This document shows, piece after piece, positions 7,829 to 56,816 of a stretch of DNA of 64,000 nt. Source of the DNA: a virus. The translations under genes and the position numbers were made by a program. The stretch covers positions 1 to 64,000 of the IMG/VR virus record IMGVR_UViG_3300025127_000020; one strand, given 5' to 3'. The number at the start of each line of letters is the position of its first letter. Positions within the stretch are counted from its first letter, which is position 1. The notes beneath the pieces are model-generated. The model did no database searches, was not told the DNA's origin, and worked only from the letters and a program-made list of their open reading frames with translations.

Positions 7829-9758
7829 TGGTTTTCTGTTCCTTTAATTGCTTATTATTCTTCTTTTCGAGGTTCTTAACAAGCGCTTTGACTTCCCAGT
7901 CAGTTAGCTCTTGATTTACCTCAAGAAGCAATTTTTCCTCTTTGTCTGTGTAAGTAGTTTCATTACCTTCGTAAATGCCACGAGAAAGTGTCTTCAGGTC
8001 AGACAATCCAGGCATTGTGTTTCTTGGAGTAAAAGATGCTGTTTCATCTGACCACTTAGACTTAATAGAACGCTTGCGAGCACCCTGCGATCTAGAATCT
8101 ACTTTTTCTGGGTGATAAACCTTGCCTTTGGAACCTGGAGTTAAATAAGCGTCTCTCTTACCTGGGGCTGCAAGCAGTGCTGAATCTGGGTCATCGCCGC
8201 CTTCGTCTCCGCCAAGATCATCACCACCGAGGTCATCACCACCGAGATCATCGCCGCCGAGGTCGTCTCCGCCAAGATCTCCTCCTCCGCCACCGCCTTC
8301 AGGTGGCGCTTCGCCTGCTGCCTCAATAGCTGCGGTAAGTTTAGAGTCGTGAAATAATTCTCTTTCAATTCTAATAACCTCTTCTTCTGTCATCTTGAAA
8401 ATGTTTCTATAAACCCAAGCCTTAGAAAAATAACCTTCAGTTGCAGCATCGGCAATTTCAAATTTTGCCCTTAGATGCTCAAGTTCTTGCATAGCTGCAA
8501 TCTGCGAAGGATTACTTAAAGTTAATTTAAACTTTGTCAGATCTTCTCCCCTGTATCCAAGAGTGTAAAGGTGAATAATTCCTACTTTTTCTAACTCTGC
8601 CACAACTGCTCTCTGAAGTCTCTGGATTGTTCTTGCAAACCTGATGTCTTTTTGAGCCAACGTTGCTTTGTCTTCATCAGCACCTTCCGCTCTAGAGAGA
8701 TAAGACTGAGGAATCTTTAATGCTGCAAACAATTTATCTCTTAAATATTTTACATCGTCGATGTCACCAGTGTAGGTTCCACCTGGGAGTGTGTCGATTC
8801 TTGTGTTTTCGCCACCTCGGATAGGAATAAAATAATCTTCGTCCACAGACAAGGGGTTGTATCTTAAATCAACTCTGCCAGTAGTTTGGTCAATAACTTG
8901 ATTTTTCTTCATCGTTGTTACAACCTTTTGCATGTATTGCTCTACATCCTGTGGAGCTATATTGCCCACATCAACATAGAACGCTCTTCTTTCTGGAGAT
9001 CTTGTTATTCTGTAGCTCATCATAGCGTCTTCTATGAGATGAAGTTGACGCCAAATTCTTCTTGCTGGTTCTAAAATAGATGTCCCGTAAGGTGCATGTT
9101 TATCATTTCCCAAAATTCTAAAGTGTGCAACTTGCCAATTCTCGAAAGTTAAACCAGCAGAGTTCCACTGATATTGAACATAGTTTGGATTTGTCGGATC
9201 TTCACCTTCTAACCTTTCTACTTCTTGCGGAGGCAAAGGAATAAAAGATTTTACGCCAATCTTGTCGTCTAAATCTACATAAAGAAAGTAATCACCATAT
9301 TTGCACATGGTTCTACACCATCCATAGAGATTGAAATCGATGTTTAAAACATTATAGTAAAGTGACTCTAAAGTTGATTTTATTTCTTGGTTTGGGCACT
9401 CAATAGAAAGAATACTAGCCATTTCACTGTGATAGGTCATTTCATCTGCATAAATATCTAGTGAAGATGCAATTATTGGCTCGAACTCCATTTGATCAAA
9501 ATCTATATACCTTTCTCCTCGTAGTCGATTTGCAATAGAATTACTGTTAATTTGTTCAAATGGGTTATATTGGCTTTTTTGAAATTGCTTTCCCGATGCA
9601 GAAGTGAATCTAGTGGCGTAATTATCTAACGCTTGTTTTTTAAATTTTCTTCTGTTTTGCTGCCGTCGATTAACTATCGGTCCAGAGAAAAGCCTTGTTA
9701 ACCTCTTGAAGAGAATTGATTCTTCGTTCTTTATGTTCTGCTTGTTATCTTCTGCCAT
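7818..9758 (-). CDS. Portal vertex protein, T4 gp20-like
   Basis: 646 aa, ATG with AAGGGG upstream. Residues 75-460 contain the gp20 core: MEFEPIIASSLDIYADE, YGDYFLYVDLDDKIGV, APYGTSILEPARRIWRQL, EDAMMSYRITRSPERRAFYV, GGTYTGDIDDVKYLRDKLF and IPQSYLSRAEGADEDKATL. It forms the dodecameric ring through which the terminase packs DNA and onto which the neck docks. An unusual insertion of repeated LGGDD units follows at about residues 490-520. The C-terminal 100 residues are charged and differ from T4. Gene order terminase, portal, protease supports the call. Confidence 0.95.
   Translation of the reverse strand: MAEDNKQNIKNEESILFKRLTRLFSGPIVNRRQQNRRKFKKQALDNYATRFTSASGKQFQKSQYNPFEQINSNSIANRLRGERYIDFDQMEFEPIIASSLDIYADEMTYHSEMASILSIECPNQEIKSTLESLYYNVLNIDFNLYGWCRTMCKYGDYFLYVDLDDKIGVKSFIPLPPQEVERLEGEDPTNPNYVQYQWNSAGLTFENWQVAHFRILGNDKHAPYGTSILEPARRIWRQLHLIEDAMMSYRITRSPERRAFYVDVGNIAPQDVEQYMQKVVTTMKKNQVIDQTTGRVDLRYNPLSVDEDYFIPIRGGENTRIDTLPGGTYTGDIDDVKYLRDKLFAALKIPQSYLSRAEGADEDKATLAQKDIRFARTIQRLQRAVVAELEKVGIIHLYTLGYRGEDLTKFKLTLSNPSQIAAMQELEHLRAKFEIADAATEGYFSKAWVYRNIFKMTEEEVIRIERELFHDSKLTAAIEAAGEAPPEGGGGGGDLGGDDLGGDDLGGDDLGGDDLGGDEGGDDPDSALLAAPGKRDAYLTPGSKGKVYHPEKVDSRSQGARKRSIKSKWSDETASFTPRNTMPGLSDLKTLSRGIYEGNETTYTDKEEKLLLEVNQELTDWEVKALVKNLEKKNNKQLKEQKTNEV
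8191..8297 (-). repeat. 15-bp tandem coding repeat (LGGDD) in portal gene
   Basis: Degenerate 15-bp units encode five successive LGGDD/E pentapeptides after a run of six glycines. Codons differ between units, so the peptide repeat looks maintained at protein level. Confidence 0.8.
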
Positions 9759-13509: not shown

Positions 13510-16500
13510 TTACTGATTAACAAAAGCGAACTTATCCTTCTTTTCAATAGAGATTTGTAAATCTACTGAATCTTTCAAGCTGTCCAAGTGTGAGATAAGA
13601 ATCACGTTCTTGAAGTGAGACTTTACCAAGTCTAAGATGCGAATGAAACCTTCCATGTTCTCTTCGTCCAAAGCTGTCCCTGGTTCATCCAAGATAAAAA
13701 TATCTCCGATAGGAAGCGATGACACATTAATAAATGCAAGTCTTATAGCCATTGCAGCAATAGCCTTCTCAGCCCCAGAACCCATCTCTAAGGGGCGTGC
13801 ATCAAACTTTGGATGTTTGATAAGGACGTTAAGTCGTCTTTCATCGTTTTCTAAGAAAACTTCAAAGTTTACGACATTGGCAAGAATCTTGGCTATCTCA
13901 TCATTGATGACTGGAAGCTCTTTCTTGATAATGTCAAGAGACACTCCATTAGACCCCATAGCCTTTTTATAGAGATCATAGGCAGAATAATCTTTCTGTG
14001 CCTTCTGAAGTTCAAACTCATCTTGCTCTATTTCACGAAGAGTAGATTCCCAGTTACCTTGAGTTTTACTCAACTCTATCATCTCCTTTTCACAAGTGGA
14101 GAGCTTGTCTTTTAATTTCTTTTTTTCTAAAACGCTTTCGTTTCTTATTCTTGTCAGTTTTGCAAATTCAGTTATTACTTTTTCGTTCTCCTCAAACAAT
14201 CGAATCTTTTGCTCAGACTCATTTTTTGAATCACGAAGACGAACAATAGTTGTTTTATTCTTAGCTACTTCAAGTTCATGCTTATTAACTTCCTCTTGTT
14301 TTGCTTTTCTTTTGCTAAGCACCTGATCATACTGATCCAAATAGTCTTGAACTTTTTGTGGCTCTAAAGAATTTAAGTTATCAGATGCCGATGTGATATC
14401 ATTCTGTTTTTTCTTTCTTTCCTTCTCAAGCTGCTCTACTTTAGCAACACTTTGATGTGCAGAACTTATAAATTTACAAGAAGGAAATTTGTCACCACAA
14501 GGAACTTGTTCTAATAAAAAAAGTTTTTTATTCGCTCTTTCAATTTCGTCTCTGATTTGACAAGTCTCTTGATTTATGATATCAATCTGTGTCTCTAACT
14601 CTGCGATCTGAATGCTTTTATCATTCCAAGTTTCATAATTAAAAGACTTCATAAATTCATCAATTTTTACTATTACATCTTCGTTGGCGAGAATTATTTT
14701 CTCTAGCGTTGCATTTCTTGTTCTGATAGTTTCTAATTGTGTCTCTTTGTCTTTAATGTTAAATTGTTCAAACTCAATGTCTACAACAGTTTGCACTGGT
14801 GTTGATTCTAACTTTGCCTCTATCTTTGCCATTTCAAGAGAAATCTTTTCAATCTCTTTGCCTATGTTCTTACAATTTATTTCTTGCTCTCGAAGATTTG
14901 CAGTAGCTAATTCAATCTCAGAGAGGGCTTCAGCTTTTCTGAAATCGTTATCTATTGGTCCGCATTTTTCGACAAGATACTTAATCTTGCCATCTAGATC
15001 ACTAGACTCCTCTTTTGCGATCTTAAATTTAGCATCAAATATTTCAAGATCAAGAAACTTAGCAAGAATTTCTTTTCTCTTAGTAGAGCCCTCTGCAATA
15101 AAAGCAAGAGACTCCAGTTGAGATGACAGAGATGTCATCAAGAAATCATCAATAGAACCGAAGAACTTTCTAATGTTTTCATCTGTTTGTGAGCGAGTCT
15201 CTCCATTGAGAGGTGAAGTCTCTTGTGTTGCCAAATCATAAACTGAAAATTCTACGTTAGTTTTTACTTCTTCGGTTTCCTCACCTTTAAGCCTTTTAAT
15301 ATATTTTTCTGCTCTGCGCTCGATAGTGTAATGTCGGTCATCTAGCTCAATGACAACTTTACCCCAGGCTTCCTGCTTGTTCTGATTTACGATGTCAAAA
15401 CTTTTTCTGTTTCGCTTTGATGTAGTGTTGAACATTACCCAAAGTAAACTATCGATAACTGAAGACTTTCCTGTAAAGTTCTTTCCGAAGATTCCGACAA
15501 TGCCTGCAAGTCCGTCAAAGTCAATCTTGTTGCCCTCTCCATAGTTGAAAAGATTGTCCCACTCCAAAGTCTTGATTGACCAACTGATGTTTCTATAGGT
15601 AGATCGTTCTTCGCTTTCAGCTTGAGCATTCACCCTTCTGTTTATCTCAAGAACCTCTTTGAGAACCGCTGCGTCGTCTTCCGTGTCTGACAAATAATCA
15701 TTTAGATACTCTTTTATCAAACGCTCTTGAACTGCCACATCTCGTAGGTTGAATTTTTCAAAGTCCTCTGCTAAGTTGACCTTGGCACGAGAACCTGTAG
15801 CTCTGTTCAAGAAAGTAACAGATTCAGGTCTGAACTTTGTCTTGGCAACGTCAATAGCTTTGCGAACCTTTTCCACTGGAATGGCATGGTTCGTTACGAT
15901 TCTGAGCCTGGCACCCTGTGGCGGGTTAGCGTTTCTTGGCAAGCGACCAGTCTTTGTAAGTTCCACTGTTACAAATGGTCTTGGATTCTTCAAGACGTGA
16001 TGACGAACATCGAAAGTGTCTTTGTCGTCAATGTCCCAAATCAAAAAACCTTTATCGTTAGTTTCGCCGTGATTCTGTTGAACAGTTGAACCACAATAAC
16101 GAACTCGACCTTCAGTGTCTAAAATCTGGTTTGTTTTATGAATGTCTCCAAGAAAAGCAAAGTCGTGACCCTCAAAGATTCCGACATCATCTTCACCATG
16201 GTCCATTACCCAGCCGATGTCTGTCTGAACTCCAGAGATCGCTCCATGATAAAGTGCTATGTTTATTGATGTCTCATTAGATGGAGAAACCCAATTATCT
16301 CTGTCAAAAACAGAGAGAACATTAAAAGTCAGACCCTTCTCTGGAGAAAACTCACCTGAGTTCTTCAAATAGTGAATAGTCTTTTTATCCAACGCATTGA
16401 TGATTGGTGTAAGAGCATCCTGCCTGCTACTATTCTTTAGATTGCCATCGTGATTGCCTGCGATAAGAACCAGGGGTGCAATGTCAGATAAATTATCAAA

Positions 16501-16695
16501 AAAGTTTGCAGCCATCTCAAAAAACTCTGGTGATAGCTGAGTCTTCGTGTGTGCAACATCTCCGCAGTGAACAATGTAGTCTGGTTTCTCCTCACGAAGA
16601 ATAGTATACATCTGTTCAAACACTGCACGATAGTCGTCGTGATACTTTAAGTTTCTAATGTGTGTGTCGCTTATGTGAGCAAGTCTAAAACCCAT
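13510..16695 (-). CDS. Single-chain Mre11-Rad50 (gp47-gp46) recombination nuclease
   Basis: 1061 aa, ATG with AGGAGAG upstream. Residues 1-235 are an Mre11/SbcD/gp47 metallophosphatase: DTH (10-12), GD (45-46), GNHDG (80-84), YHG (148-150) and GDIH (182-185). Residues 240-365 resemble a capping domain and linker. Residues 370-1061 are a Rad50/SbcC/gp46 ATPase: Walker A GKNFTGKSS (403-411), coiled coil, a hook region with CGDKFPSC near 735, a signature-like MGSGAEK near 970 and Walker B FILDEP near 1000. In T4 these are two proteins (genes 47 and 46) that resect DNA ends for recombination-dependent replication. Here one uninterrupted frame encodes both in nuclease-ATPase order. Confidence 0.93.
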   Translation of the reverse strand: MGFRLAHISDTHIRNLKYHDDYRAVFEQMYTILREEKPDYIVHCGDVAHTKTQLSPEFFEMAANFFDNLSDIAPLVLIAGNHDGNLKNSSRQDALTPIINALDKKTIHYLKNSGEFSPEKGLTFNVLSVFDRDNWVSPSNETSINIALYHGAISGVQTDIGWVMDHGEDDVGIFEGHDFAFLGDIHKTNQILDTEGRVRYCGSTVQQNHGETNDKGFLIWDIDDKDTFDVRHHVLKNPRPFVTVELTKTGRLPRNANPPQGARLRIVTNHAIPVEKVRKAIDVAKTKFRPESVTFLNRATGSRAKVNLAEDFEKFNLRDVAVQERLIKEYLNDYLSDTEDDAAVLKEVLEINRRVNAQAESEERSTYRNISWSIKTLEWDNLFNYGEGNKIDFDGLAGIVGIFGKNFTGKSSVIDSLLWVMFNTTSKRNRKSFDIVNQNKQEAWGKVVIELDDRHYTIERRAEKYIKRLKGEETEEVKTNVEFSVYDLATQETSPLNGETRSQTDENIRKFFGSIDDFLMTSLSSQLESLAFIAEGSTKRKEILAKFLDLEIFDAKFKIAKEESSDLDGKIKYLVEKCGPIDNDFRKAEALSEIELATANLREQEINCKNIGKEIEKISLEMAKIEAKLESTPVQTVVDIEFEQFNIKDKETQLETIRTRNATLEKIILANEDVIVKIDEFMKSFNYETWNDKSIQIAELETQIDIINQETCQIRDEIERANKKLFLLEQVPCGDKFPSCKFISSAHQSVAKVEQLEKERKKKQNDITSASDNLNSLEPQKVQDYLDQYDQVLSKRKAKQEEVNKHELEVAKNKTTIVRLRDSKNESEQKIRLFEENEKVITEFAKLTRIRNESVLEKKKLKDKLSTCEKEMIELSKTQGNWESTLREIEQDEFELQKAQKDYSAYDLYKKAMGSNGVSLDIIKKELPVINDEIAKILANVVNFEVFLENDERRLNVLIKHPKFDARPLEMGSGAEKAIAAMAIRLAFINVSSLPIGDIFILDEPGTALDEENMEGFIRILDLVKSHFKNVILISHLDSLKDSVDLQISIEKKDKFAFVNQ

Positions 16696-16704
16696 TCATC
16701 TCTC

Positions 16705-17640
16705 CTAGATACTAAAAATTGCTTGTTCCAAAAATGACTCTGGTGTCATAAGTTTGGCGTTGGCTTTTCTTTTCTCAAATTCTCTTCTTGTCATCTCACC
16801 TACATCATCGTAAGGTGCTATGTCTATCTTATAGACTTCTATATCAAATGTCAACATTTTTTTTATTAAACGCATAGCCTTTGTTTCAACGTCTGGATCT
16901 AAGGCTATGTAAACTGGTGTGTCGTGTTCGACCACCTTCTTTATTAGTTTTGAATCTTCCTTTAGGGACGAGCCAAGAATAGGAACTGCATTGCCTGCAA
17001 CGATGGCGTCAAATGCTCCTTCAACTATCGTCAAGTCAGAATCAAAGTCTACATAGAGTTCGTTGAAAACAATGTCTCTGCTTGCAGGAGGATTCTTGTA
17101 TTTCATCCAGTCATTGCCGTAAGTTCTGGCAACAAAGTAGTTTACATCCCCGTCTTCGTTGAACGATGGAATAATTATTCTCTCCTTATAATCCCCTGAT
17201 GGACAATAGCCAATCTTCCACTTCAAGATGTCATCGTTGGAAACACCTCTACTGTAAAGAAATTTAAGAATAGGCTTTGTAGCCAAAGAAAGGTTCTTGG
17301 AGCACAAAGTCTTGAACTCCTCTGGCAAATCTACTCTCTGCTCTATCTTTTCTTCTATGGGTTGTTCCGTTGAGAAAATTTCCTCAAATGAAGAAATCTC
17401 CACTGAATCATCAAACTTCTTCCACTCTTGCTGATCTCTAAATGAGCCGTGCCTCTTTATAAGACGACGAACACTGTTTCCCCTATAAAAACAGACCCAA
17501 CACTGAAACTTGTTTTTGTCAAGATTTACAGATAGTTTCTTCTTGTGGTGATTACACTTTGGACAAAAGAATAAAATCTCGTCGCCTGTGTGATAGTGTG
17601 CTCCAAGAACTTTCTTAAGGATTGCTACTTTGCTTGACAA
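16705..17640 (-). CDS. DNA primase, DnaG-type zinc finger plus TOPRIM
   Basis: 311 aa, TTG start with TAAGG eight bases upstream and no nearby ATG. An N-terminal zinc finger has CPKC (26-29) and CWVC (47-50), as in CHC2 primases. The central region (GYCPSGDYKERIIIPSFNED, 144-163) matches the RNA polymerase core of DnaG. The TOPRIM fold has VEGAFDAIVAG (206-216, Glu207) and ALDPDVE (246-252, Asp248/250). It is about half the length of DnaG because a C-terminal helicase-binding domain is missing. It makes RNA primers for lagging-strand synthesis. It has its own sigma70-like promoter. Confidence 0.9.
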   Translation of the reverse strand: MSSKVAILKKVLGAHYHTGDEILFFCPKCNHHKKKLSVNLDKNKFQCWVCFYRGNSVRRLIKRHGSFRDQQEWKKFDDSVEISSFEEIFSTEQPIEEKIEQRVDLPEEFKTLCSKNLSLATKPILKFLYSRGVSNDDILKWKIGYCPSGDYKERIIIPSFNEDGDVNYFVARTYGNDWMKYKNPPASRDIVFNELYVDFDSDLTIVEGAFDAIVAGNAVPILGSSLKEDSKLIKKVVEHDTPVYIALDPDVETKAMRLIKKMLTFDIEVYKIDIAPYDDVGEMTRREFEKRKANAKLMTPESFLEQAIFSI

Positions 17641-17668: not shown

Positions 17669-17697
17669 ACTATAACAAAGAAGAAATAGAAAGTCAA
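17669..17697 (-). promoter_or_regulatory. Sigma70-like promoter of the primase gene
   Basis: On the minus strand TTGACT (17697-17692), a 17-bp spacer and TATAGT (17674-17669). The -10 ends 28 bp before the TTG start, leaving room for a leader with TAAGG. The -35 box overlaps the stop of the RuvC-like gene. Confidence 0.6.
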
Positions 17698-18209
17698 GAG
17701 TTTTTTTGATAAAAACCTGCCTTTGCAATTACCCAACTATCTGCCTTGTCAAAAGAGTTGGGTTTTGGATTTCCATGCTTAGTGTATTCTACCATAAACT
17801 TTGGCTCGTTGTCAAGCACAAATTGTAAAACAACTGGTTTGGCTTTCTCTCCTTTTGGAACTTTGATTCCGCAGAGTTTTCTTGCAGATGTTGCTGCAAT
17901 GTAGGTAGGTTCTTTGTGCCACAAAGAATAGCACATCCAACTTACAACTCCGTTGAACCTTGATAGAGTCGATAAAGTCTTTGCAGATGAGAATCCTGAA
18001 CGGAAAGACTGAAGTGATTGTTCTATTACAATCTGGTCTACTGAGTGTTTCCTAGAAAGATCTTTTAGAAAAGATTTAATAGCTTCAGCTTTTTGAAAGA
18101 AATTCTTATTCTTCCTTGTGTCAACTGAAGAAATAAAAATAACTTCTCCTTCTTTATCTAGTAATGTTATGCCTGTGATGCTAGTTGAGATGTCTAATCC
18201 TAAAATCAT
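17694..18209 (-). CDS. RuvC-like Holliday junction resolvase/RNase H-fold nuclease
   Basis: 171 aa, ATG overlapping the upstream stop. RNase H-fold motifs are LGLDISTSITGI with Asp6, VIEQSL with Glu63, TSARKLCGI (108-115) and FDKADSWVIAKAG with Asp154/157, matching the four acidic positions of RuvC-type enzymes. Length matches RuvC (about 170 aa). It likely resolves branched DNA before packaging, the job of endonuclease VII (gp49) in T4. It is followed by the primase and the Mre11-Rad50 gene, a DNA-processing block. Confidence 0.85.
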   Translation of the reverse strand: MILGLDISTSITGITLLDKEGEVIFISSVDTRKNKNFFQKAEAIKSFLKDLSRKHSVDQIVIEQSLQSFRSGFSSAKTLSTLSRFNGVVSWMCYSLWHKEPTYIAATSARKLCGIKVPKGEKAKPVVLQFVLDNEPKFMVEYTKHGNPKPNSFDKADSWVIAKAGFYQKNS

Positions 18210-28895: not shown

Positions 28896-31800
28896 TTACT
28901 CAGCCTCCTCTGGTAATTTCTTCTTGTAAAGTTCCATAGGATTGATTTCAAATTCTGCACCTGCTTCAATTTTTACCATTTCTACTAAACTAAAATAGTC
29001 GTAAGGATAATTATAACTATATTGAGGTTCTTCTACACCAGCAGTAGTTTCAAAATCAAATCTTTGATCCTGAATTGAGTCATTCAATAGAGTTTCATAA
29101 TCCATGCATGCAGTCTTTTTAACCTTAAACACCATCCATCTAACATCTTGTGTTATTTTTCTGCCTTCAAAAAATTCCCAGGGAGCAAGATCATGAATAA
29201 CTTCATTACTATCTTTCCTTGAAGTCAAAGCTATTTTAGGCTGAAGACCTTGCCAAATGTTTGATAAATCTTCTTGATCTAAAGTTTCTTCAAATTCGAA
29301 AAAGTAAATAACAAAAGGTTTTGAATCTGAACGGAACTTCATAAAATCGTAACGAGGAGGAAGATTATATTTTTTCATCATCTTGCTCATTCTAGTTATA
29401 GTTGTTTCTTCAATGTCTGATTCTAAACCATAATCTTGAGCCGAGACTGCTGGCAGACCATTCTCAACATTAGAGACTTGCTTAATAAATTTTTCTGGTG
29501 TTATTGAAAAGAAGTTCCTATCGTCTACTCTTATTGTTTCTTCTAGTGGTGAATCTACAAAAGGAATCATAACAACGGCTTCAGAAATTGTTCTTTCTTG
29601 TGCTATTCTCCCCACTTGTTCCTTGAAAGATTTAAACCCACACACGTCTATAAGAGAGCCAATTCTCTCACCCTCAGAAACAGATGTGAAACTTTCTTCC
29701 AAAGAGATAAAAATTCCTTCGCCATCTCTAGGAATCTCTCCATAAGAACTCCAAATTCCCTGACCAGACTTATGTGCTGTTACGCCCTGCTCTCTATAGA
29801 AAGAAGAGTAGGTAAATTCTTCTATCTTTCGCTCTTGCACGGCAACGTCGGTGCCCTTAAGATCTCTTACGTGTGCGAAATTTAAGACTGGACATTCGAA
29901 TTTAGTAGAAATGCACCAAGAATTATAACTGGTGTCTGCTGCGTCTTGCGCAGACATCGGTTTCTTTTTTTCTACTCCGTCTTCTTCTAATTTAGTTGAA
30001 CTAAGATCAAAACTCACTTGCCTTGTTCTTCTTTTACCAAGTAATTCAAGGCAAGATTCAACCTTCATTCTTGATTTCCAAGCTGGTTGGTTTCTATAAT
30101 CTGATACTCTGACTCCTTCTCTCACCATGACGGGAAGTTCAAAGCCAGGAAAATCTCGAAAACCATCCTCGGGCTCATCGTCAGGGGTCAATGGGGTAAT
30201 AATAGTCTCAACAATTTGTGATCTGCTTCTAAAATAATCATTATGCTCCCTTGAAACGTCTTCTGTAGTAATTTTAGACAAAATCTCATTCAAAGTGTAA
30301 ACCCTACTTTCCTCTGCTCTGAAAGCAAGTCTTGTAACTCCCTTTCCATATAAGTAAGGAGGGGCATAAGCAGCCTGCGAAGGAGGTGCAGTTAAATCCT
30401 CGATTCCTTCAATGGTGGTCACATCATAATCTCTAAGTTCTTTCCATTTCATAGCTGGACCAAAATATTTTGTTGGAATTTCACCACCTGAAGTAGTTGC
30501 AATTTCAAAACCTTTAGATTTAGAGATTGCAACGTCCATGTAATATGTTACTCCCGCTGTCATTTGCTTAAATTCAATTTCTGGTCTAGATGTCAACGTT
30601 GTAAGTTTACTATTCTGTAAAAAGAATTTAGGAACCTCTGCTACAAAATTGTTTATTGCATTATCATATCTAATGTCAGACCTTGAATCTGATAACCACT
30701 CAAAATTTGGATAAACATAATCTCTTAGGTTTCTCAGCCTGGAGGAGGGATCTTGGTCTCCTTTCTGATGACGGATTTCATAATATTCTGGAGTCATTAA
30801 GAAGAACTTATTACAATAAGATTCATCTGCTTCTGTTTCATACCTGTGAGGATCTGAGAAAATAAGTTGACCAGAAATTGGATCAGAAGCTGCTGTTGAG
30901 ACAAATAGGGATTGCTGTGTTGAGCCAGTCCCTTGATCGTCTCGATCCGAAATTACAAAGCGGGTGTTGACGTCTGTAACGTTATCAGGATTAGGGTAAC
31001 CATCAGAAGTAAAAAATGGCTTTACCCCCAAACTATTTGGAGAAGAATAATTTTGTGATCCTAGTATTGTAACCCTATCACCGCTTACTTGAAACTCTCC
31101 TCCTGCAATTCCCGAAATAACCCTTCTCGAAGCAAGCAAAGTGGCGACACTTCCAGTCGAACCTTCGAAGCGTCCGAAGCCCGAATGACGACCTGAAAAA
31201 TGATCTAATCTTTCTTGAATATTCGTGTTATGTGGAAGAATTTCTCCTGCTTCGGTTTCTCGAACACAATGAAACTGTTTCCACGTTAGTGAAGCATTGC
31301 TTGCGATGTGGTTCACTTTCAAAAACTGCTTTGGCATGCCGTCATCACCAAAAGTTTCAATAGTTTCTTCAATTGGACCAGTTGCTATAAGTCTAATAAC
31401 CCAAGTTCCATTATTTTGTTTTCCTATTATCTGATCGGTGCAACCCCATTCCAATTCAGACAAAGTAGAGAGCAAGCCACCTTCTGGGGTAGAAATTCTA
31501 GTCGGACTGTAACGGACGCCGAAAAGTTCTGGGTTAAGTGTTGGAAACCAATAGCTTATTGGTTCAAGCGGTTCAAAACGAACGGGGTTTTCATATTGAT
31601 GAGTGGGTGTCCAACCAGGAATCGCAATTACGGAAAAATCTTCTCTTTCGTTTATTGCCTTACATAATCTTATAGCAATTAATTCGTTGAGATAATCTAT
31701 GGTGATTTCACCATCTGAAATCTGGTTTGCCAATATTGTGTTTCCTTGAGAACCATCTAAAGGAACCGAATCTATGGTGAAATTTTTTGGTGCCAACATA

Positions 31801-34800
31801 AATTCTCGAACGTCAACATCCCAGTCAGTGTCTTCAAACCCAGGTCTTTGTGTTGTGCCTATTGAAATTTTATTTTTCTTGAGATAGTATCCGTCTCCGC
31901 TAGGATCAGACTCTACTGTCTCAAAAGTTAAAATAGTGCCTTCACAATCCCATCCATTTAATTCCAAACTCAAATTTTTAAACTTAGTTTTTGATTCAGC
32001 GGGCTCAGCCATCGAAAGAAATTTTGTTGGATTTATAAGCGCCTCAAAAGGCAATCTTGTTGTGGGCTCGGTAACTGTCACAAAACCATACATTGAATGG
32101 CTCGGCATGTTCAGGTTGCCAAGGACCCCAGGCTGATGGGCATTTAGTAGCGAATAGAGTGGTCCGCTGTCCATGGATTCAGTAAGTTCAAAAAGTGCCT
32201 CATCCAAATTTTCTCTGCTCTGCCTGGGACAATACCAATGTGGAGCAGGTGTTTTAAAAGTTCTTTCAACATTTTCAGATGTAGTATAAGAGGACGACAC
32301 AGCCGATTGCTCTAAACCATAAGTGTCTGTAAACGATGCCCAGTCACATGCAATTCCAGCCTTTATTGAATTATATAAAATTCCTGGTGCGAAAAAATGC
32401 TGTAGTGCAGCTTGAATAGCTTGCTCATTGTGAAAAACGGCTTCTTCTGGTTGTGGCTTAATAGACTTTTTAGCTTTTTCTGTAAATAATTTAGCTATTT
32501 GAACTGTTCTATCTTGTGGATAAAAACCATCATAAGGTAATAATTTCTTAATAGCATTTACCTTTAGCCTTACACGTTCTTCGACTTTAACACCTAAAGA
32601 TTCTTGATCTCTAGTCACTTTTTCGATGAATTTTATGTTATCTGAGTGAACATAAGAATTGAAAAATTCATCATCCCAAGATTCACACTCTGTTATTTCC
32701 TCATGATAAGCAACGCCGAGACGATGCCACATTTGAAGATGTTCGTTGACCAATGAGCCCGATCCTGTTCCTCTGGACATTTCAGCCACTGACCATCCAA
32801 AGGTAGCGTTGGGATCTGTTATGGCAATGCCAGTGTCATCGATATCTAATTTTCTAAATCTTTCTGGTATTGTAGATGACAATTTCCAATCATCAAGGTT
32901 ACTGGGTGGGAGAAATTTATCAGTCTCGATGTCATTTAACAAATTGCTAGGCTTGCCATTATTATAAAGCACTCCAATGCTATCCTTTGTCATAAAACCA
33001 CTCCAAACCGACAATTCATCTAAAAGACCAGAAAATCTAAATCTCTTTGTCTCTTCAGATTGATTTGTTTCTAATGCAACAACAGGATTTGAATTGCCAA
33101 GCACAAGTGATTTGTTGAAGGAAGACGCTGCAAAGCCTACATATTCAATGCCCAAATTGTCAGTCCCATGTGGTTGAACAGTTGAATGCGGTTTACCAAC
33201 AGAAGCTGGGGAATAGGCATTTGCTACATGTGTAGCACCGACTGCTAAAGCATAAGGGTGAGCACCGTAAAGCTCTTCGCCATTCAACCACAATTTAATC
33301 AGAGTTGTCTGATTTGGGGTGTTATTAAAGACATCCTTGTTAGACACGAGTTGAAAAACAATATGATTAAATTGACCTTCCTTAAGAAAAGCGGGTTTTC
33401 CATCTCCACGAAAAAATGTAATTACATCTGTACCCCGAAAATCGTGAGAGCCGTAGGAATCTACTATTTCTGGTAGTCTAGGAGTGTCACTAAAAACCAC
33501 AGTTAATCCTGAATTTCCAAGACTGTCTGTAAACTTATTTTTGACTCCTTCAAATTTTACCTTTTCAAGAACAGACATAGAAGCGGTGGCACTGCTGCTG
33601 AGTTGTAACCCTAAGCAACTAAATAACCCACTTGTTTCTCTCTCTGGATTTGGTTGAGCCCACACTGAAAGATTGAAGGGCACTCCAAAGCCCGCAGGAA
33701 AAATTCGATTACTTTGGCTAGCTCCAGTAGATGGATCACGGAAAGCAACTTTATTGAAGGAAGCCACTAAATAATCATTTTCATTTTCTATGTTAAATTG
33801 TGCTGCTGCATTGATTCCTTTCTGGTGTGGAACTCTGGCTGGCGAGACGAATGGAAAAGGTTCATCAATTATGACATCAGTGTTAACACTGTTATCTATT
33901 GTGAATGTGCCACCAGCATAAAGTGGATTTATTGATTGGTCTTGTCCTCTGACAACACCATCTGGTCGATTATTATTTCTAATAAAATAACTCTCTAAGG
34001 CTTCTTGGGCTGAAGTTGGATAAACAATTTTACGAGTACTTTCAATGTCATCTGCGGTTTGCCCTGGAAACAAATTAATCGCATAAGTTCTAACTTTAGT
34101 TATATCTTTCTTTGAACTAAACTGAGTGTGTGTTTTCCCTTCATGACGATTTGAGTCGTAGCTTGCACCATCGAGAGACAAAAAGCTATAGTTTTTTTGC
34201 CTATAATTGACAGTTCCATCTAACAAATATTTATCCATGTGTTGTGAAACTCTAAATTCTGATAAAATTCCATAATTTTGCCCAATGCTTCTAAGTTCTT
34301 CTCCATAATGGTCGTAATCGTCATAAGCTGGAACCAATTGAGATTGATCAATAATTTTTCTTGGAAACCATTGTTTTTCCTGACCATCGGTGTGCTCACG
34401 GGGTAAATAAAAAAGTTGAGCCCTTGGTTGAGTCCGCAATCTTTCATTTCTTATTACCGAAGAGTTATAAAATGGAGCTATTGAAGAGCTAGAGTCAAAC
34501 AATTTTTCCTGACCCCAATCACGAACATCTACACTGGCTTCGGCAGATACGGCATTGCGAATTTTGTTCAGAATCTTGGATTGGTAAAAATTTATTCCTC
34601 CATAGTTTAATTCACCAATAACCTCATAACCTCTTGTGGTAAGTCCATCATTTTGTTGATATTGGTAGTAATCCATAACAAATGAAGATTCGTGTAATCT
34701 GCCATTGGCTTTTGAAGCCAAAACAAGTTTTTCAAACCCAAGTTTACTTTTTTGCCAAGCTGGTGTCATTCTATCCAACAGCAAAGAATCCCAAAATTCT

Positions 34801-37800
34801 TCATAACCATCAAATTTAGATCTTTCTCTTACCTTATTCAAGCCCACGTTTCTGTGCTTTGGATAGATAATTTCTTTATAGAAAAAACTAGTGTAGTAAG
34901 GTGTTTGCTCTAAGGGAAAATTACCTGATAGAAGATTGTTAATCTCATCGTAGAACTGATTAGAGTTTTTAACAACTTCAACTCTTGCTGCCAAATTTGG
35001 ATTTGCAAAGAATTCTAAACCGTTAGAATAAGCATGCCTAGCCAAGATTGTTGGTGGTGTTGATTCTTCCATGTCAAAATCAATAGCAATTTGTAAGTCT
35101 CTAGAGTTTCTCAAAATTCTATGAGTCATCGGCTTATTCCAAGCCGCTATTGGTTCCCTATAGTTTGACGAAGATTGCTCATCGCCATCAATAACAGAGA
35201 TAACATTTTCTTTTCTACCCTCAACTGGTTCATTGCGTTCTGAACCTCTTATGAATCTCCAACCAGAACCTTGATAGTCTGCATAAGATTCTTGATCAGA
35301 AGTTGCATCATAGCCTTCTGAGATCACAAAATCATTATAATAGTCGCTAAATCTCAGAGGAACCTTTGAACCACAAACATCATTTATAGATGTTTCATAT
35401 TGAGATGGATCTACAGAAGATGTTACAAAATGATATTGTAAATCAGACCTTGGAATTTGATGACCGACATAAGCATTATCGAAAGTAGACTTGCAAACAT
35501 AGGATTCCCCTGATGGTCCTGAGTTGACTAATCGAACATCATAAAGTCTATTTCTATTATTCTTCTGATATGCTGCAATACCTGGCAGTGCAAGGTCTTG
35601 CCTATAGCCCTGCGAACCTTCGTAGAGACCACTGTGTTGGGCGAGCCAATAATGAAGATGAGACCTAACATTAAAGTTTCTAAAATTCATAGAATTGTAA
35701 GGACTAAATTCAGCAGCCTCATGATCCATAAATCCAAGACCCATTGTCAATGGATCGCCTGGGGCAGAGAATCTTTCTACGAAAATGTTTTCAGTTCTGC
35801 CGAAGTCATAATTATTTGCCCTTGTTCTGTCTGGAAGCGTGTAGTCTGAAAGACCAGTAATAACAGTTGATGCTCTTTTATTAGCTACCTGATTTCCTTC
35901 ATCTTTTACAAACCATCGATTATTTTTTGATCTACCAGATGTTTGAATTACATCATAGTCATGAGTGTAATTGCCGAGAGGTTTTTCGTTTGCGTTTACC
36001 CTATCGTGAATTATAACTGTTTTAATGTTTTTTATATTTAATGGTCTTTTTGCAACCTCTTCTCTTAGAAATCTTGCAGATGCATTATTCACATCTATAT
36101 CTTTAGGATGTTTTAATTCATTACCTGATTTTAAAAACAATTCTGGTCTATTTGGATCCGCACCATAATAAGTTGATAAAACAACATGCCTGTGTTGATT
36201 ACCCCCTACCCATTGTGATGTAAATGGACCCTGCATTGGAATTTCAGCATCATCACCATAAGAATCATTATGTAAATTTTTCAAGTCGGCAGTGGCAGTG
36301 TCTATTGATTCTCCAAATCTAGGATAAATGAATGATCCATCTAGAGACTCTGTTTTAGAGCCATCTTTCAAAGTAATTGTGCTAGACCTCTTGAATTTCT
36401 TAAAAAATTCTGTGTTTATTTGAGATTCTCTTGAGCACTCTCTTGGGTTGATGTCAAGTGATGTTATTTCAACTGATTTGCCCATTGGCGTTGAAGACCT
36501 AACAAAATCATTAGGATCTTTCGTTGTTTCGCTGTAATTTACACCACCATGAATAGTTGGAGACTTTGTAACATTCAACCTGTAAGGCTTTGAAAGCCTC
36601 CTCGTTGCATAGACTCGACCCTCATAAAAAGTTGTAGAACTAGAATCATAGAGTGTTGGATCAGATTCCTCGACAAGACCAAGCCCACGGTCTACTAATT
36701 TTGTTTGCCCCTTTATCTCTCTGGTTTCTACACTTCTTATTTTCTCTCTGTCTGCATCAACATTTGCATCGCCAGAAGTAACAGTTGTTCCAGTTCTCTC
36801 TGCCCTATCTTTTTCCCACAGGCACTTATCTTCTCCCGCAAGGGGTGCTCGACCTAAGTCGTAATTATAGAGCATTTCGTTTATGCCACGAACGTTTGCT
36901 TCGATAGGTTGATCTTCCATTTCAAGCGTTGGAAACTTTGTCCAGTATTTGTTTCTCTCAAGAACATGAGACTCAATCATTGTTCTAAGTTCAGAAGAGA
37001 AGTTGCTTGAAACTGGAATTAATTGTTCCAACATCATGCCTATAGAGTTGTCAATCCACTTGTAATAGTCTACGTATTTTTCTAGACTAGGAACATTTTT
37101 TACACGTTCAAAAAACATCTGTCTAAACTTTTCTAAAGACTTGTAGTCCATTCTATAGCGGTTGATTGGCTGACCTATCAAATCATTAAATTCTACAATA
37201 GTTGCAAAAAGGTTTACAATCTGATCGTTGATAATTTGATACATGCTCTTTTCTGCTGCGAAGAAGTGAGTTATCGGTCTAGAGTCTCTTGTAAATTTAT
37301 CATCATCTTGAGTTCTTATTTCCACAAGTTCTTCTGAGTTGATGACTTCTGGTGGTCTATGTTTAGCCGAATAAATAAATTCTCTATTCGTTACTTGATC
37401 GTCATTTGCTTGAAAGTGTCTACCCCTACCTGTTACCTGTTTTCTTACAAGTTCTGTAAACCATCCATATCTTGAATCTGATGCTGCAAAGCCTTCAGAA
37501 AGATCTTCTACTGTAAAATTACCGCTGGCATCGGATGTTGCAACTCCGTTAAAGTCCCAGTGCATGGCTAGTGTGTCTTTTCTTGGAACTCTAATGTCTG
37601 CTGTTCCACCGCTGCTTAGATTTGCTACAAACGAATAGGCATCATCATTTGGGTGTAATCGACCAAAATTACTACCATCAGAGGCGTGTGCTTTAATTTC
37701 TTCATTAGATAAATAATCATACCAAAACAGTGTTGACGAAATTTTTAAATTAGTTTTTCGATTAACATTAGGTTCCGAAGGATCATAATTTTGTTTTGAT

Positions 37801-40220
37801 GCACCTATTGAGATAAACTTCTTTTTTTCTACCTCTGTTCTAGCAGCAGTAGATGTTATGATTTGTGTCTTAGTAAATTCGTGCTCTACAGAATCAGACA
37901 ACGTGCTAACACCATAGAATTCTAATTCATAATCAGTAGTAGCTCCGCCGTGAATTTTATCACCAAATTCTTTTACTGGAGATAATTTAACTGCAAGATT
38001 CCACTTTGAATTATCATAGACAGACTTATAGACATCTGACTTTAGTAGATAATTTACTCCCCCAAAATTAAGAGAGGCTACAAACTTTACATTGTCTGAA
38101 TAATCTTGCTCCTTCTCTATGTAGATGTCAACAATCGGTGGATTAGAATTTTGATAAACAGAATCTCCAGTCTGAGTTGGATCAGCTTCTGCAACAACTA
38201 AAATCTGTTCTTCTGATTGAATAGGAGTAGTAAAAGCTGGATGACCATTGTCTGCTTTCTTTGGAATAATAAATTCAGTTTCTACGGTAAAAGAAATCAA
38301 ATTGCTATTTGCATTTGAAGGTGCGTCAATGTAAGATGATGTTTCTGTTCTTGCTGCATCATTTTGACAATAAACAGTTGCAGAGTCTCTAGTCAGGCTA
38401 TTAAAGTCTACAAAATTCTTCTTTATCGCTGTAGTTCTTCTAGTGTCTTCAAGTGTGTAGTCTGAATTGTCTGCGTAGAGATTTATTTTTACCAACTCAT
38501 CATCAATGCCGAAACATCTGATTAGGTTTCTAAACGACTTTTCCGTTCCTTTTGATTTAAAGATGAACGAGATGTTATTGTAAATATTTTGATAAATAGT
38601 ATTTTTTATATCATGAATCTTTTCGTTAAAAAGATCTTGCTCGCCTCTGGATAAAATCTCCTCAATGGCATTAGCTTCCGAGAATAAGTCTGGAACTATA
38701 ATTCCTCTTGACTGTAATGAATCTCTTATTAAAGCGTAAGGCTTATCATTCTCTTCTTTTAGTGAGTAATATTTAACTTCTCCAATGTCTGTAATCTCTT
38801 TTATCTGTTGATGCGTTTCATCAAAGTAGCTACTTAAAACTTGAGTAAACTTTTGCAAGTTGTTGCCAGTTTTTTCGTCCTCATCGATGATCCAAGCGGG
38901 TAAAGTGTTAAAGATTGAAGAATTATTAATATAGTCATGAGCACGCCCAAGTGTTTCATAAGACGAAAGAGTTGACGCTAAAGAAGGGTGTGTGGAATAA
39001 ATTATCGGATCTTTAGTTTCCAAATCATCGAAGAGACCGTATTCATCAAGAGCAGAAGTTAATTTTCTAACTTCCAAACTGTAGCTTGAGATTGTTCCAT
39101 TTGAAATTCTTCCAGAATAGTCTAAAACAATTGAATCAATCGATTCGTTTCCGACAATACCTTCATTGAATTTAAGATAGACGCCTAAGTCTACCTTATT
39201 GTTTTCTTTGCTATATTTCTCGTTATCAGTGTTGGTCCCTCCATCTACATTTGTAAACCAATAGCGACCGATTTGTTCTTCTGTTCTTCTTTGCTTCCAG
39301 AATCTAAACTCATCAACATAAAGACCGTTAACCGTGTTTGTTCCAGATGCGGTGCCATTTATGTTCAAATAGGTCTCAGCCTGAGAGATAGAATCAACAT
39401 TCGTGCCTGCTTTTATAAGACCAATCCTTGTTCCATTTTTGTAAATTTCTACTTGAACATCATTTCCAAAATTTATAAAGGATAAAGCATAGTGTGCCCA
39501 AGAGGTTCCTAAGAAATTAGAGATTGTAACCTGACCATCGGCTCCAGATAGACCTGTAGATGTGTCATCAGTGTAAGTAAGAGACAGAACAGAGGAAGTA
39601 GTGTTATAAGCAACCTGAATCCTATTACCCGACTCATTACCTGCAACAAACGGATAGACGTCTCCAGAGACCGATCCTTCTAGTTTTGCCCAAAACTCAA
39701 CTGTGTTACCTAAAGTTCCATTGATGTGAACATTTGCTGTTCTGTAAATTTCTGGATCCCAGATGTTTGCATTTCCCTCTTTATGCGGATACTGTTTTGA
39801 TAGTTCTTCTTTATCATTTACAGCTACAGAGGGGTCTCTGTTTGGTCCACCCTTCACATAAATAGATTGACCTGTTCCTAGTTTTACATGACCAACGGTC
39901 TTTGGATAGACATTATCAAAAATCCACTTGTCCAAGCCAGAGGACTCATTATGCCATTTTGTTTTTTCTAGCAAAGAGCCATCATAGGGATAGGTTTGAT
40001 AAATTCTTCTAAATGAATCTTGATAGTAGCGCTCTGCCGAACCATACCTTGCAAAGTTTTCTGGTTTTGAATAATCTATGTGAGAGACAAAAGACTTTCT
40101 CTCTTTTACCTTTTCTGAAATCAGAGCACTAGATTCGACATTCTTTTCTATCTCTTCTTGCTTAGACTTAGTGATTACCTTATTGTTTTTTCTTTTATTA
40201 AATAAGTCTTTTACGCTCAT
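28896..40220 (-). CDS. Giant virion protein (3774 aa) with two LamG-like domains
   Basis: 11.3 kb in one frame. The ATG at 40220 overlaps the upstream stop (TGATG); an in-frame TTG one codon earlier is ignored. Residues 165-320 form a LamG/concanavalin-like domain (NTVEFWAKLEG, SWAHYALSFINFGNDVQVEI, LYVDEFRFWKQRRTEEQI). A second lies near 2130-2430 (FNLSVWAQPNP, GQFNHIVFQLVSN, IKLWLNGEELYG, LLDELSVWSGF). The rest is mixed, with no catalytic motif spotted and no signal peptide. It is part of a coupled block with gp6-like and DNRLRE-like genes, so it is probably attached to the baseplate and may bind surface glycans. At this size it could form a long extended appendage. Confidence 0.8.
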   Translation of the reverse strand: MSVKDLFNKRKNNKVITKSKQEEIEKNVESSALISEKVKERKSFVSHIDYSKPENFARYGSAERYYQDSFRRIYQTYPYDGSLLEKTKWHNESSGLDKWIFDNVYPKTVGHVKLGTGQSIYVKGGPNRDPSVAVNDKEELSKQYPHKEGNANIWDPEIYRTANVHINGTLGNTVEFWAKLEGSVSGDVYPFVAGNESGNRIQVAYNTTSSVLSLTYTDDTSTGLSGADGQVTISNFLGTSWAHYALSFINFGNDVQVEIYKNGTRIGLIKAGTNVDSISQAETYLNINGTASGTNTVNGLYVDEFRFWKQRRTEEQIGRYWFTNVDGGTNTDNEKYSKENNKVDLGVYLKFNEGIVGNESIDSIVLDYSGRISNGTISSYSLEVRKLTSALDEYGLFDDLETKDPIIYSTHPSLASTLSSYETLGRAHDYINNSSIFNTLPAWIIDEDEKTGNNLQKFTQVLSSYFDETHQQIKEITDIGEVKYYSLKEENDKPYALIRDSLQSRGIIVPDLFSEANAIEEILSRGEQDLFNEKIHDIKNTIYQNIYNNISFIFKSKGTEKSFRNLIRCFGIDDELVKINLYADNSDYTLEDTRRTTAIKKNFVDFNSLTRDSATVYCQNDAARTETSSYIDAPSNANSNLISFTVETEFIIPKKADNGHPAFTTPIQSEEQILVVAEADPTQTGDSVYQNSNPPIVDIYIEKEQDYSDNVKFVASLNFGGVNYLLKSDVYKSVYDNSKWNLAVKLSPVKEFGDKIHGGATTDYELEFYGVSTLSDSVEHEFTKTQIITSTAARTEVEKKKFISIGASKQNYDPSEPNVNRKTNLKISSTLFWYDYLSNEEIKAHASDGSNFGRLHPNDDAYSFVANLSSGGTADIRVPRKDTLAMHWDFNGVATSDASGNFTVEDLSEGFAASDSRYGWFTELVRKQVTGRGRHFQANDDQVTNREFIYSAKHRPPEVINSEELVEIRTQDDDKFTRDSRPITHFFAAEKSMYQIINDQIVNLFATIVEFNDLIGQPINRYRMDYKSLEKFRQMFFERVKNVPSLEKYVDYYKWIDNSIGMMLEQLIPVSSNFSSELRTMIESHVLERNKYWTKFPTLEMEDQPIEANVRGINEMLYNYDLGRAPLAGEDKCLWEKDRAERTGTTVTSGDANVDADREKIRSVETREIKGQTKLVDRGLGLVEESDPTLYDSSSTTFYEGRVYATRRLSKPYRLNVTKSPTIHGGVNYSETTKDPNDFVRSSTPMGKSVEITSLDINPRECSRESQINTEFFKKFKRSSTITLKDGSKTESLDGSFIYPRFGESIDTATADLKNLHNDSYGDDAEIPMQGPFTSQWVGGNQHRHVVLSTYYGADPNRPELFLKSGNELKHPKDIDVNNASARFLREEVAKRPLNIKNIKTVIIHDRVNANEKPLGNYTHDYDVIQTSGRSKNNRWFVKDEGNQVANKRASTVITGLSDYTLPDRTRANNYDFGRTENIFVERFSAPGDPLTMGLGFMDHEAAEFSPYNSMNFRNFNVRSHLHYWLAQHSGLYEGSQGYRQDLALPGIAAYQKNNRNRLYDVRLVNSGPSGESYVCKSTFDNAYVGHQIPRSDLQYHFVTSSVDPSQYETSINDVCGSKVPLRFSDYYNDFVISEGYDATSDQESYADYQGSGWRFIRGSERNEPVEGRKENVISVIDGDEQSSSNYREPIAAWNKPMTHRILRNSRDLQIAIDFDMEESTPPTILARHAYSNGLEFFANPNLAARVEVVKNSNQFYDEINNLLSGNFPLEQTPYYTSFFYKEIIYPKHRNVGLNKVRERSKFDGYEEFWDSLLLDRMTPAWQKSKLGFEKLVLASKANGRLHESSFVMDYYQYQQNDGLTTRGYEVIGELNYGGINFYQSKILNKIRNAVSAEASVDVRDWGQEKLFDSSSSIAPFYNSSVIRNERLRTQPRAQLFYLPREHTDGQEKQWFPRKIIDQSQLVPAYDDYDHYGEELRSIGQNYGILSEFRVSQHMDKYLLDGTVNYRQKNYSFLSLDGASYDSNRHEGKTHTQFSSKKDITKVRTYAINLFPGQTADDIESTRKIVYPTSAQEALESYFIRNNNRPDGVVRGQDQSINPLYAGGTFTIDNSVNTDVIIDEPFPFVSPARVPHQKGINAAAQFNIENENDYLVASFNKVAFRDPSTGASQSNRIFPAGFGVPFNLSVWAQPNPERETSGLFSCLGLQLSSSATASMSVLEKVKFEGVKNKFTDSLGNSGLTVVFSDTPRLPEIVDSYGSHDFRGTDVITFFRGDGKPAFLKEGQFNHIVFQLVSNKDVFNNTPNQTTLIKLWLNGEELYGAHPYALAVGATHVANAYSPASVGKPHSTVQPHGTDNLGIEYVGFAASSFNKSLVLGNSNPVVALETNQSEETKRFRFSGLLDELSVWSGFMTKDSIGVLYNNGKPSNLLNDIETDKFLPPSNLDDWKLSSTIPERFRKLDIDDTGIAITDPNATFGWSVAEMSRGTGSGSLVNEHLQMWHRLGVAYHEEITECESWDDEFFNSYVHSDNIKFIEKVTRDQESLGVKVEERVRLKVNAIKKLLPYDGFYPQDRTVQIAKLFTEKAKKSIKPQPEEAVFHNEQAIQAALQHFFAPGILYNSIKAGIACDWASFTDTYGLEQSAVSSSYTTSENVERTFKTPAPHWYCPRQSRENLDEALFELTESMDSGPLYSLLNAHQPGVLGNLNMPSHSMYGFVTVTEPTTRLPFEALINPTKFLSMAEPAESKTKFKNLSLELNGWDCEGTILTFETVESDPSGDGYYLKKNKISIGTTQRPGFEDTDWDVDVREFMLAPKNFTIDSVPLDGSQGNTILANQISDGEITIDYLNELIAIRLCKAINEREDFSVIAIPGWTPTHQYENPVRFEPLEPISYWFPTLNPELFGVRYSPTRISTPEGGLLSTLSELEWGCTDQIIGKQNNGTWVIRLIATGPIEETIETFGDDGMPKQFLKVNHIASNASLTWKQFHCVRETEAGEILPHNTNIQERLDHFSGRHSGFGRFEGSTGSVATLLASRRVISGIAGGEFQVSGDRVTILGSQNYSSPNSLGVKPFFTSDGYPNPDNVTDVNTRFVISDRDDQGTGSTQQSLFVSTAASDPISGQLIFSDPHRYETEADESYCNKFFLMTPEYYEIRHQKGDQDPSSRLRNLRDYVYPNFEWLSDSRSDIRYDNAINNFVAEVPKFFLQNSKLTTLTSRPEIEFKQMTAGVTYYMDVAISKSKGFEIATTSGGEIPTKYFGPAMKWKELRDYDVTTIEGIEDLTAPPSQAAYAPPYLYGKGVTRLAFRAEESRVYTLNEILSKITTEDVSREHNDYFRSRSQIVETIITPLTPDDEPEDGFRDFPGFELPVMVREGVRVSDYRNQPAWKSRMKVESCLELLGKRRTRQVSFDLSSTKLEEDGVEKKKPMSAQDAADTSYNSWCISTKFECPVLNFAHVRDLKGTDVAVQERKIEEFTYSSFYREQGVTAHKSGQGIWSSYGEIPRDGEGIFISLEESFTSVSEGERIGSLIDVCGFKSFKEQVGRIAQERTISEAVVMIPFVDSPLEETIRVDDRNFFSITPEKFIKQVSNVENGLPAVSAQDYGLESDIEETTITRMSKMMKKYNLPPRYDFMKFRSDSKPFVIYFFEFEETLDQEDLSNIWQGLQPKIALTSRKDSNEVIHDLAPWEFFEGRKITQDVRWMVFKVKKTACMDYETLLNDSIQDQRFDFETTAGVEEPQYSYNYPYDYFSLVEMVKIEAGAEFEINPMELYKKKLPEEAE

Positions 40221-54196: not shown

Positions 54197-54402
54197 TATT
54201 TATTCTCTTCTAAAATCTCTTCAATGGTAAAGGTTGGGGGGTTTGTGACTACCAGTTCTCCGTTTTTTGTTCCCCAGCGCTTAGTCGTCTCATCTTTAGT
54301 AAAATCCATTGACTTTAAAACTGGAACTATGTCTGTTTGTTCCAACAAACTTTTTTGAAGTGCCATCATAATAGCGCTCAATGCTTGATCACTCAGTTTC
54401 AT
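54196..54402 (-). CDS. Small helical protein in sigma-factor operon
   Basis: 68 aa from the ATG at 54402, chosen because AGGAG lies six bases upstream; the in-frame start seven codons earlier overlaps the glycosyltransferase further. The N-terminal helix KLSDQALSAIMMALQKSLLE is followed by DIVPVLKSMDF and an acidic end. No family name is known to me; size and place near the gp55-like gene would allow a gp33-type co-activator, which is only a possibility. Confidence 0.5.
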   Translation of the reverse strand: MKLSDQALSAIMMALQKSLLEQTDIVPVLKSMDFTKDETTKRWGTKNGELVVTNPPTFTIEEILEENK

Positions 54403-56808: not shown

Positions 56809-56816
56809 TTTTTCTC

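Follow-up and report, generated by a model that had tools for sequence, protein, structure and literature searches.

A phage gene for a fused Mre11-Rad50 protein, and relatives re-split inside the nuclease domain at a site used by homing endonucleases

The stretch of DNA analyzed here (the window: 64,000 nucleotides, positions 1 to 64,000 of IMG/VR record IMGVR_UViG_3300025127_000020, which is 79,561 bases long and stems from an uncultured virus) contains a single gene for a fused Mre11-Rad50 (SbcD-SbcC) protein, and among the relatives of this gene the fused frame has been cut again at one place inside the nuclease. That homing elements split the fused gene in these relatives is well supported. 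The window gene itself is one more example of a fusion type known since 2011.

The fused gene lies on the minus strand at 13510-16695, as one intact frame of 1061 codons with an ATG start and a stop codon at 13510-13512; the plus strand there is full of stops. The earlier note had described this frame, its Mre11 and Rad50 domains and its coordinates correctly, leaving out the strand, and every motif it listed was found. The nuclease comes first in the single open frame, with motifs DTH (residues 10-12; 16660-16668), GD (45-46; 16558-16563), GNHD (80-83; 16447-16458), H150 (16246-16248), and GDIH (183-186; 16138-16149). Both halves of the ATPase are present as well, marked by Walker A GKNFTGKS (residues 404-411, within 15463-15495), a signature-like SGAEK (973-977), Walker B ILDEP (1001-1005), and H1036 of the H-loop. 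Across 47 aligned rows the metal-ligand residues D10, H12, D46, N81, H82, D83, H150, D184, and H186 are invariant, as are the S, G, E, and K positions of the signature in the family alignment. Asp184 stands where the canonical Mre11 motif GHxH has its second His; the invariant alignment column is the evidence for this, as a pattern count giving Asp in 179 of 179 is circular, GDxH being part of the pattern. We note that two T5-like phage SbcD proteins likewise have GDLH.

Database comparisons agreed on the same two domains. Pfam matches to the window protein (Metallophos at residues 3-165, 8.8e-14; SMC_N, 2.3e-12; AAA_23, 1.7e-9) all pass curated cut-offs and are far beyond chance. PHROGs matches were SbcD-like (a calcineurin-type phosphoesterase) over residues 1-374 and SbcC-like over 302-1057, and the nearest sequences with solved structures were archaeal Rad50 ATPases and Staphylococcus aureus SbcD. 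Elsewhere in the window, also on the minus strand, we observed two very long frames (28896-40223, 3775 aa; 43985-50161, 2058 aa) and, at 54389-56826, two adjoining proteins that both match one phage glycosyltransferase family.

We modeled the window protein as a monomer with AF2, using 45 relatives (mean pLDDT 80, pTM 0.48). Foldseek matched the model to Rad50 (7zr1), SbcD (7dog, 4lty), and Mre11-Rad50 (3av0, 5dny). The nuclease domain spans residues 1-240 (15976-16695), as placed by Pfam, motifs, and the model, and includes a loop and strand directly after GDIH (residues 187-208, KTNQILDTEGRVRYCGSTVQQN; 16072-16137), which is intact in the window and is the homologous place of the split site in relatives. 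A capping-domain-like segment follows (241-301; 15793-15975), assigned from predicted secondary structure and from the fold match to the nuclease and capping domain of SbcD 7dog. Two helices (320-331 and 339-362; 15610-15738) are read as the helix-loop-helix, Rad50-binding domain of Mre11, with the domain order described in PMC3175470. Beyond a linker of about eight residues (363-370, ERSTYRNI; 15586-15609) come the N-terminal ATPase lobe (371-547; 15055-15585), opening with the strand 371-380, a coiled coil of predicted helices (551-913; 13957-15045) with a hook at its tip (CGDKFPSC, residues 733-740; 14476-14499), and the C-terminal ATPase lobe (918-1061; 13513-13944), supported by Pfam, a sequence match in the structure database, the model, and the motifs. 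All of these features are on the minus strand.

The junction between the two enzymes is shorter than first described. The earlier note had placed a short linker at about residues 320-370, most of which the model assigns to the helix pair, leaving eight residues in the AF2 monomer between the pair and the first ATPase strand. This spacing is tight but in range, since 9-12 residues were estimated to bridge 28 Å in the Thermotoga maritima complex (PMC3175470). The linker would run straight into the first ATPase strand, the helix pair (320-362) would dock on the coiled-coil root of its own chain, and the single chain would reproduce a contact that in T4 and Escherichia coli is made between two proteins. 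Two such chains would dimerize via ATPase heads, nuclease domains, and hook. It is very improbable that the fused chain is instead cleaved or separated after translation to give the usual two-subunit M2R2 enzyme: a two-chain form does work in T4 and bacteria, which is nothing specific to this protein, whereas the junction linker is short and fairly constant in length, with R368 and N369 conserved (alignment A1), and none of the natural re-splits seen lies where Mre11 and Rad50 are joined.

Single-chain genes of this kind proved to be widespread. A search found 303 IMG/VR stretches that encode relatives of the window protein. Among the nearest 80 of the 303 (46-74% identity), 80 out of 80 had both domains in one frame, and these frames measured about 1020-1085 aa from stop to stop, a few being cut by a contig end. 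Wider searches brought the total of fused loci to about 157. Mel-JY01, an isolated phage of Microcystis, encodes the same fusion (WWT39521) under the sole annotation "AAA domain containing protein", and a 735-kb phage assembly contains a 1202-aa version. A scan of a genome collection returned only a MAG contig with the coordinates of one of the viral loci (L038, a viral contig) and a WOR-3 MAG with a single partial match.

Although the window derives from an uncultured virus record, it is next to inconceivable that the fusion is a sequencing or assembly artifact in which a stop was lost, or a frameshift introduced, between two genes. The single frame recurs in all of the nearest 80 loci and in about 157 overall, from independent assemblies, and in an isolated and annotated phage. 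We therefore rejected an assembly join, the possibility that the earlier note had wanted excluded.

The fusion is also not new. Yoshida, Claverie and Ogata (2011) described Mimivirus R555 and twelve other Mre11/Rad50 fusions from bacteria, plasmids, eukaryotes, and Bacillus phage 0305phi8-36, reported an abundance of R555 homologues in viral metagenomes from aquatic sources, and argued that aquatic viruses carry most of the fusions (PMC3175470). The novelty claimed in the earlier note does not survive these many published examples. Its statement that T4 and bacteria keep the two enzymes as separate proteins holds as a rule, but not for the published bacterial fusions (PMC3175470). Among unfused phage pairs from Demerecviridae, Herelleviridae, and a Moorella phage, those of the first two are adjoining or overlapping genes in the order nuclease then ATPase, so fusion needs little beyond the loss of a stop.

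The Mre11-Rad50 encoded by the window gene very likely works as a single chain in a tailed phage, a prediction from its sequence and model and from a replication and recombination neighborhood. A gene for a DnaG-type primase (311 aa; 16705-17640, minus strand) adjoins it, and one for a RuvC-like Holliday junction resolvase (171 aa; 17694-18209, minus strand) is also a neighbor. We infer the dimer architecture, activity, and role of the protein; the role would be recombination-dependent replication, with processing of DNA ends and hairpins. A defense or counter-defense function for an SMC-like nuclease, rather than a repair enzyme, is also very improbable. SMC-like defense systems such as Wadjet and Lamassu do match the coiled-coil ATPase by fold, but the best sequence-family matches are SbcC and SbcD, the neighbors are a primase and a RuvC-like resolvase, and the gene is common among tailed phages. 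As one of very many phage examples, the window gene alone changes little, and a stable single chain could be convenient for structural work on Mre11-Rad50.

The hook differs from the usual type. E. coli SbcCD and archaeal hooks are CXXC, whereas the window protein and most of its family have C-x6-C. Classified by pattern, 179 hooks comprised 141 of C-x6-C, 27 of CXXC, 2 of C-x7-C, and 9 unclassified. We observed (window and L001-L080) that the C-x6-C hook of most of the family has the form CGxxFPxC and that other members of the same clade have CXXC, and that an unfused Moorella phage SbcC has a C-x7-C hook. A tblastn search of phages with the C-x6-C hook as sole query gave 0 matches, the query being too short to be telling, and a search of 5.39 million open-access papers for a CX6C Rad50 hook showed no paper with that term among the matches listed.

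Alignment of the window protein to two relatives, L103 and L102, is interrupted within the nuclease; in both, the interruption lies in the loop that follows GDIH, ahead of Y-x-G-S-x-x-QQN. About 30 loci proved to be split at this loop, further ones being found by a search with one N-half. The split IMG/VR loci are L129 (2291-6448), L131, L135, L136, L144, L102, L109, and L114, and in addition L123-L128, L130, L132-L134, L137-L142, L145, L147, L148, and L159-L161. A search with the N-half of L103 found no IMG/VR relatives. Close fused relatives have a loop of 9-18 residues at the site (146 loops). In every split locus seen, the break falls in this loop, and the N-half holds all metal-binding motifs and the C-half the remaining nuclease, the helix pair, and the ATPase. 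The earlier note had suggested that fusion fixes a 1:1 stoichiometry. This is a fair inference, but the chain is re-cut within the nuclease in relatives, which shows that the single chain is not indispensable.

Endonuclease genes occupy the gap in several split loci. We note that the Vsr-, TnsA-, and HNH-like assignments given here come from one Pfam match near the cut-off, relatives found by search, and motif reading. L129 and L131 have a 300-aa frame for a zinc-plus-Vsr-like endonuclease between the halves. A 39% relative of this Vsr-like endonuclease is present in L204 (L204/G001), a locus akin to the window's clade (52% for the N-half, 43% for the C-half). In L103 (LR756508, 2965-7190; a 484-kb phage assembly from another clade), a TnsA-like endonuclease gene separates the halves. 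L285 (3431-7633) has an HNH-type frame in the gap and an N-half 68% identical to the window protein; this locus and L204 both fall within the window's own clade or beside it. Other loci retain less. Of the L129-type endonuclease frame, L135 and L136 keep just the beginning and the end; a shorter scar is present in L144, and many other split loci show a short spacer or overlapping genes.

The endonuclease gene thus lies inside a coding region and is absent from close relatives, as is seen for L129 compared with its fused sister L149 and also for L103, L204, and L285. In our best explanation, a cassette inserted in the loop after GDIH splits the gene inside the nuclease; the N-half gains an acidic tail at its C-terminus, and the C-half gains a basic strand at its N-terminus. 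Two further observations concern single loci. In L073 (6959-7905), a GIY-YIG-like endonuclease frame directly follows the fused gene, and after it the last 61 codons of the gene, from Walker B onward, occur a second time; this looks like homing near the Walker B site in which the 3' end was duplicated. In L103, a structural-type protein (7937-9235) ends in a C-terminal region resembling a Hint/intein domain.

The added ends are alike across split loci. N-half tails are acidic, of the form VEIEIDEDDLxKYPG, with a net charge of -2 to -10 in 28 out of 28. C-half heads are basic, resembling MxKKIKIKVKK, with a net charge of +2 to +10 in all 27 that were parsed; the head of L126 is basic by reading.

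DNA comparisons indicate how these ends spread. Over most of the profile L135 is 82-96% identical to the fused L173, but identity drops to about 70% adjacent to the split. The cassette and flank of L135 are 87-98% identical to those of L129, whereas elsewhere L135 and L129 differ strongly. L144 shows the same mosaic pattern when compared with L187 and L129. The tail/endonuclease/head cassette has moved laterally into fused genes, with conversion of the flank, and because the DNA of L135 and L144 is mosaic in this way, the cassette carries the tail and head codons. On well-supported branches only, the split state changes at least 7 times in a FastTree tree of 85 rows and at least 8 times in 34 rows with cassette flanks removed, counts that alone do not tell gain from loss. 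Both halves are under strong purifying selection, with dN of 0.03-0.20 and dS greater than 1 or saturated in five pairs.

A structure model suggests how the two halves might be held together. We ran AF2 on L123 with its TGA read as a residue, and obtained a strand (200-212), a helix (213-218), and two further strands (223-228 and 233-245), with a pLDDT of about 84 for the module. The break in L123 (229-232) is the turn between the last two strands. Modeling L123 as one chain favors a hairpin, so we take this result as support, not proof. The tail and head probably pair as an intermolecular beta-hairpin that keeps the split enzyme working, and we lean slightly toward the view that they act as a clasp. 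Since the pair probably keeps the enzyme working, the endonuclease could be lost and the split kept.

Alternatively, the split pieces might not belong to a true two-chain enzyme but reflect an intron, a split intein, programmed frameshifting, or read-through of a stop, and we consider this unlikely. In its favor, nothing but a TGA precedes an in-frame GTG in L123 and L126, and several pairs overlap in a +1 relation. However, the frame relation varies by phage (overlapping, in the same frame, or separated by as much as about 960 nt that include an endonuclease gene), which argues against a single recoding event, and conservation of the tail and the head includes their own stop and start codons. 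Intein halves are far longer than about 25-35 residues, which is the length of these tails. We rejected an intein origin of the re-split genes, as no intein-sized sequence is present. 

A farther-reaching reading is that a mobile cassette, in contrast to introns and inteins, lets its host gene go on working with no splicing at all, since it brings matched ends (acidic tail, basic strand) that re-join the chains as a split beta-hairpin, with different endonuclease families using the site in turn; taken as a whole, we hold its chances to be even.

These related loci amount to a natural experiment: after its fusion, a large enzyme was divided again and again by mobile DNA at a single position, and every stage can be seen among them, from an intact endonuclease through a deletion remnant and a scar to overlapping genes. 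If the tail and head are a clasp that travels with the cassette, this would be a third way, beside RNA and protein splicing, for a mobile element to occupy an essential coding region and leave it functional. If the clasp is real, the tail and head would also be a ready-made tag pair for split proteins.

Compared with known systems, the window protein contains the same two enzymes in the same order as T4 gp47/gp46 and E. coli SbcD/SbcC, which are two proteins each. Mimivirus R555 and the other published fusions share its domain order and have a helix-loop-helix and a short linker, as the model predicts for the window protein; at the position of Pyrococcus furiosus Mre11 His206, R555 reportedly has Asp, like D184 of the window protein (PMC3175470). 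R555 is longer (1351 aa versus 1061 aa) and was compared by its published description only. The Mel-JY01 protein is likewise fused, with a primase two genes upstream, and shares 29-30% identity with the window protein over the full length, but differs in having a CXXC hook and a Walker A that begins with A.

The closest parallels to the re-split loci are "genes in pieces", namely NrdA of Aeromonas phage Aeh1, split by mobE, T4 gene 60/39, and gene 43 of Aeromonas phage 25, in which a homing endonuclease likewise lies in a coding region and the two resulting polypeptides work together (PMC2988022), as is probable here. The re-split loci differ from those cases in their target gene, in the use of one site by several endonuclease families, and in a recurrent tail/head pair that moves together with the cassette. 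Dassa et al. in 2009 reportedly described "fractured genes", in which split-intein genes have an endonuclease between the halves. Fractured genes and the re-split loci share halves that flank a free-standing endonuclease, but the latter have no intein-sized sequence. An Mre11/SbcD gene split by a homing endonuclease was not seen in searches of 5.39 million open-access papers. Homing "genes in pieces" are known, and this target and the proposed shared clasp look new.
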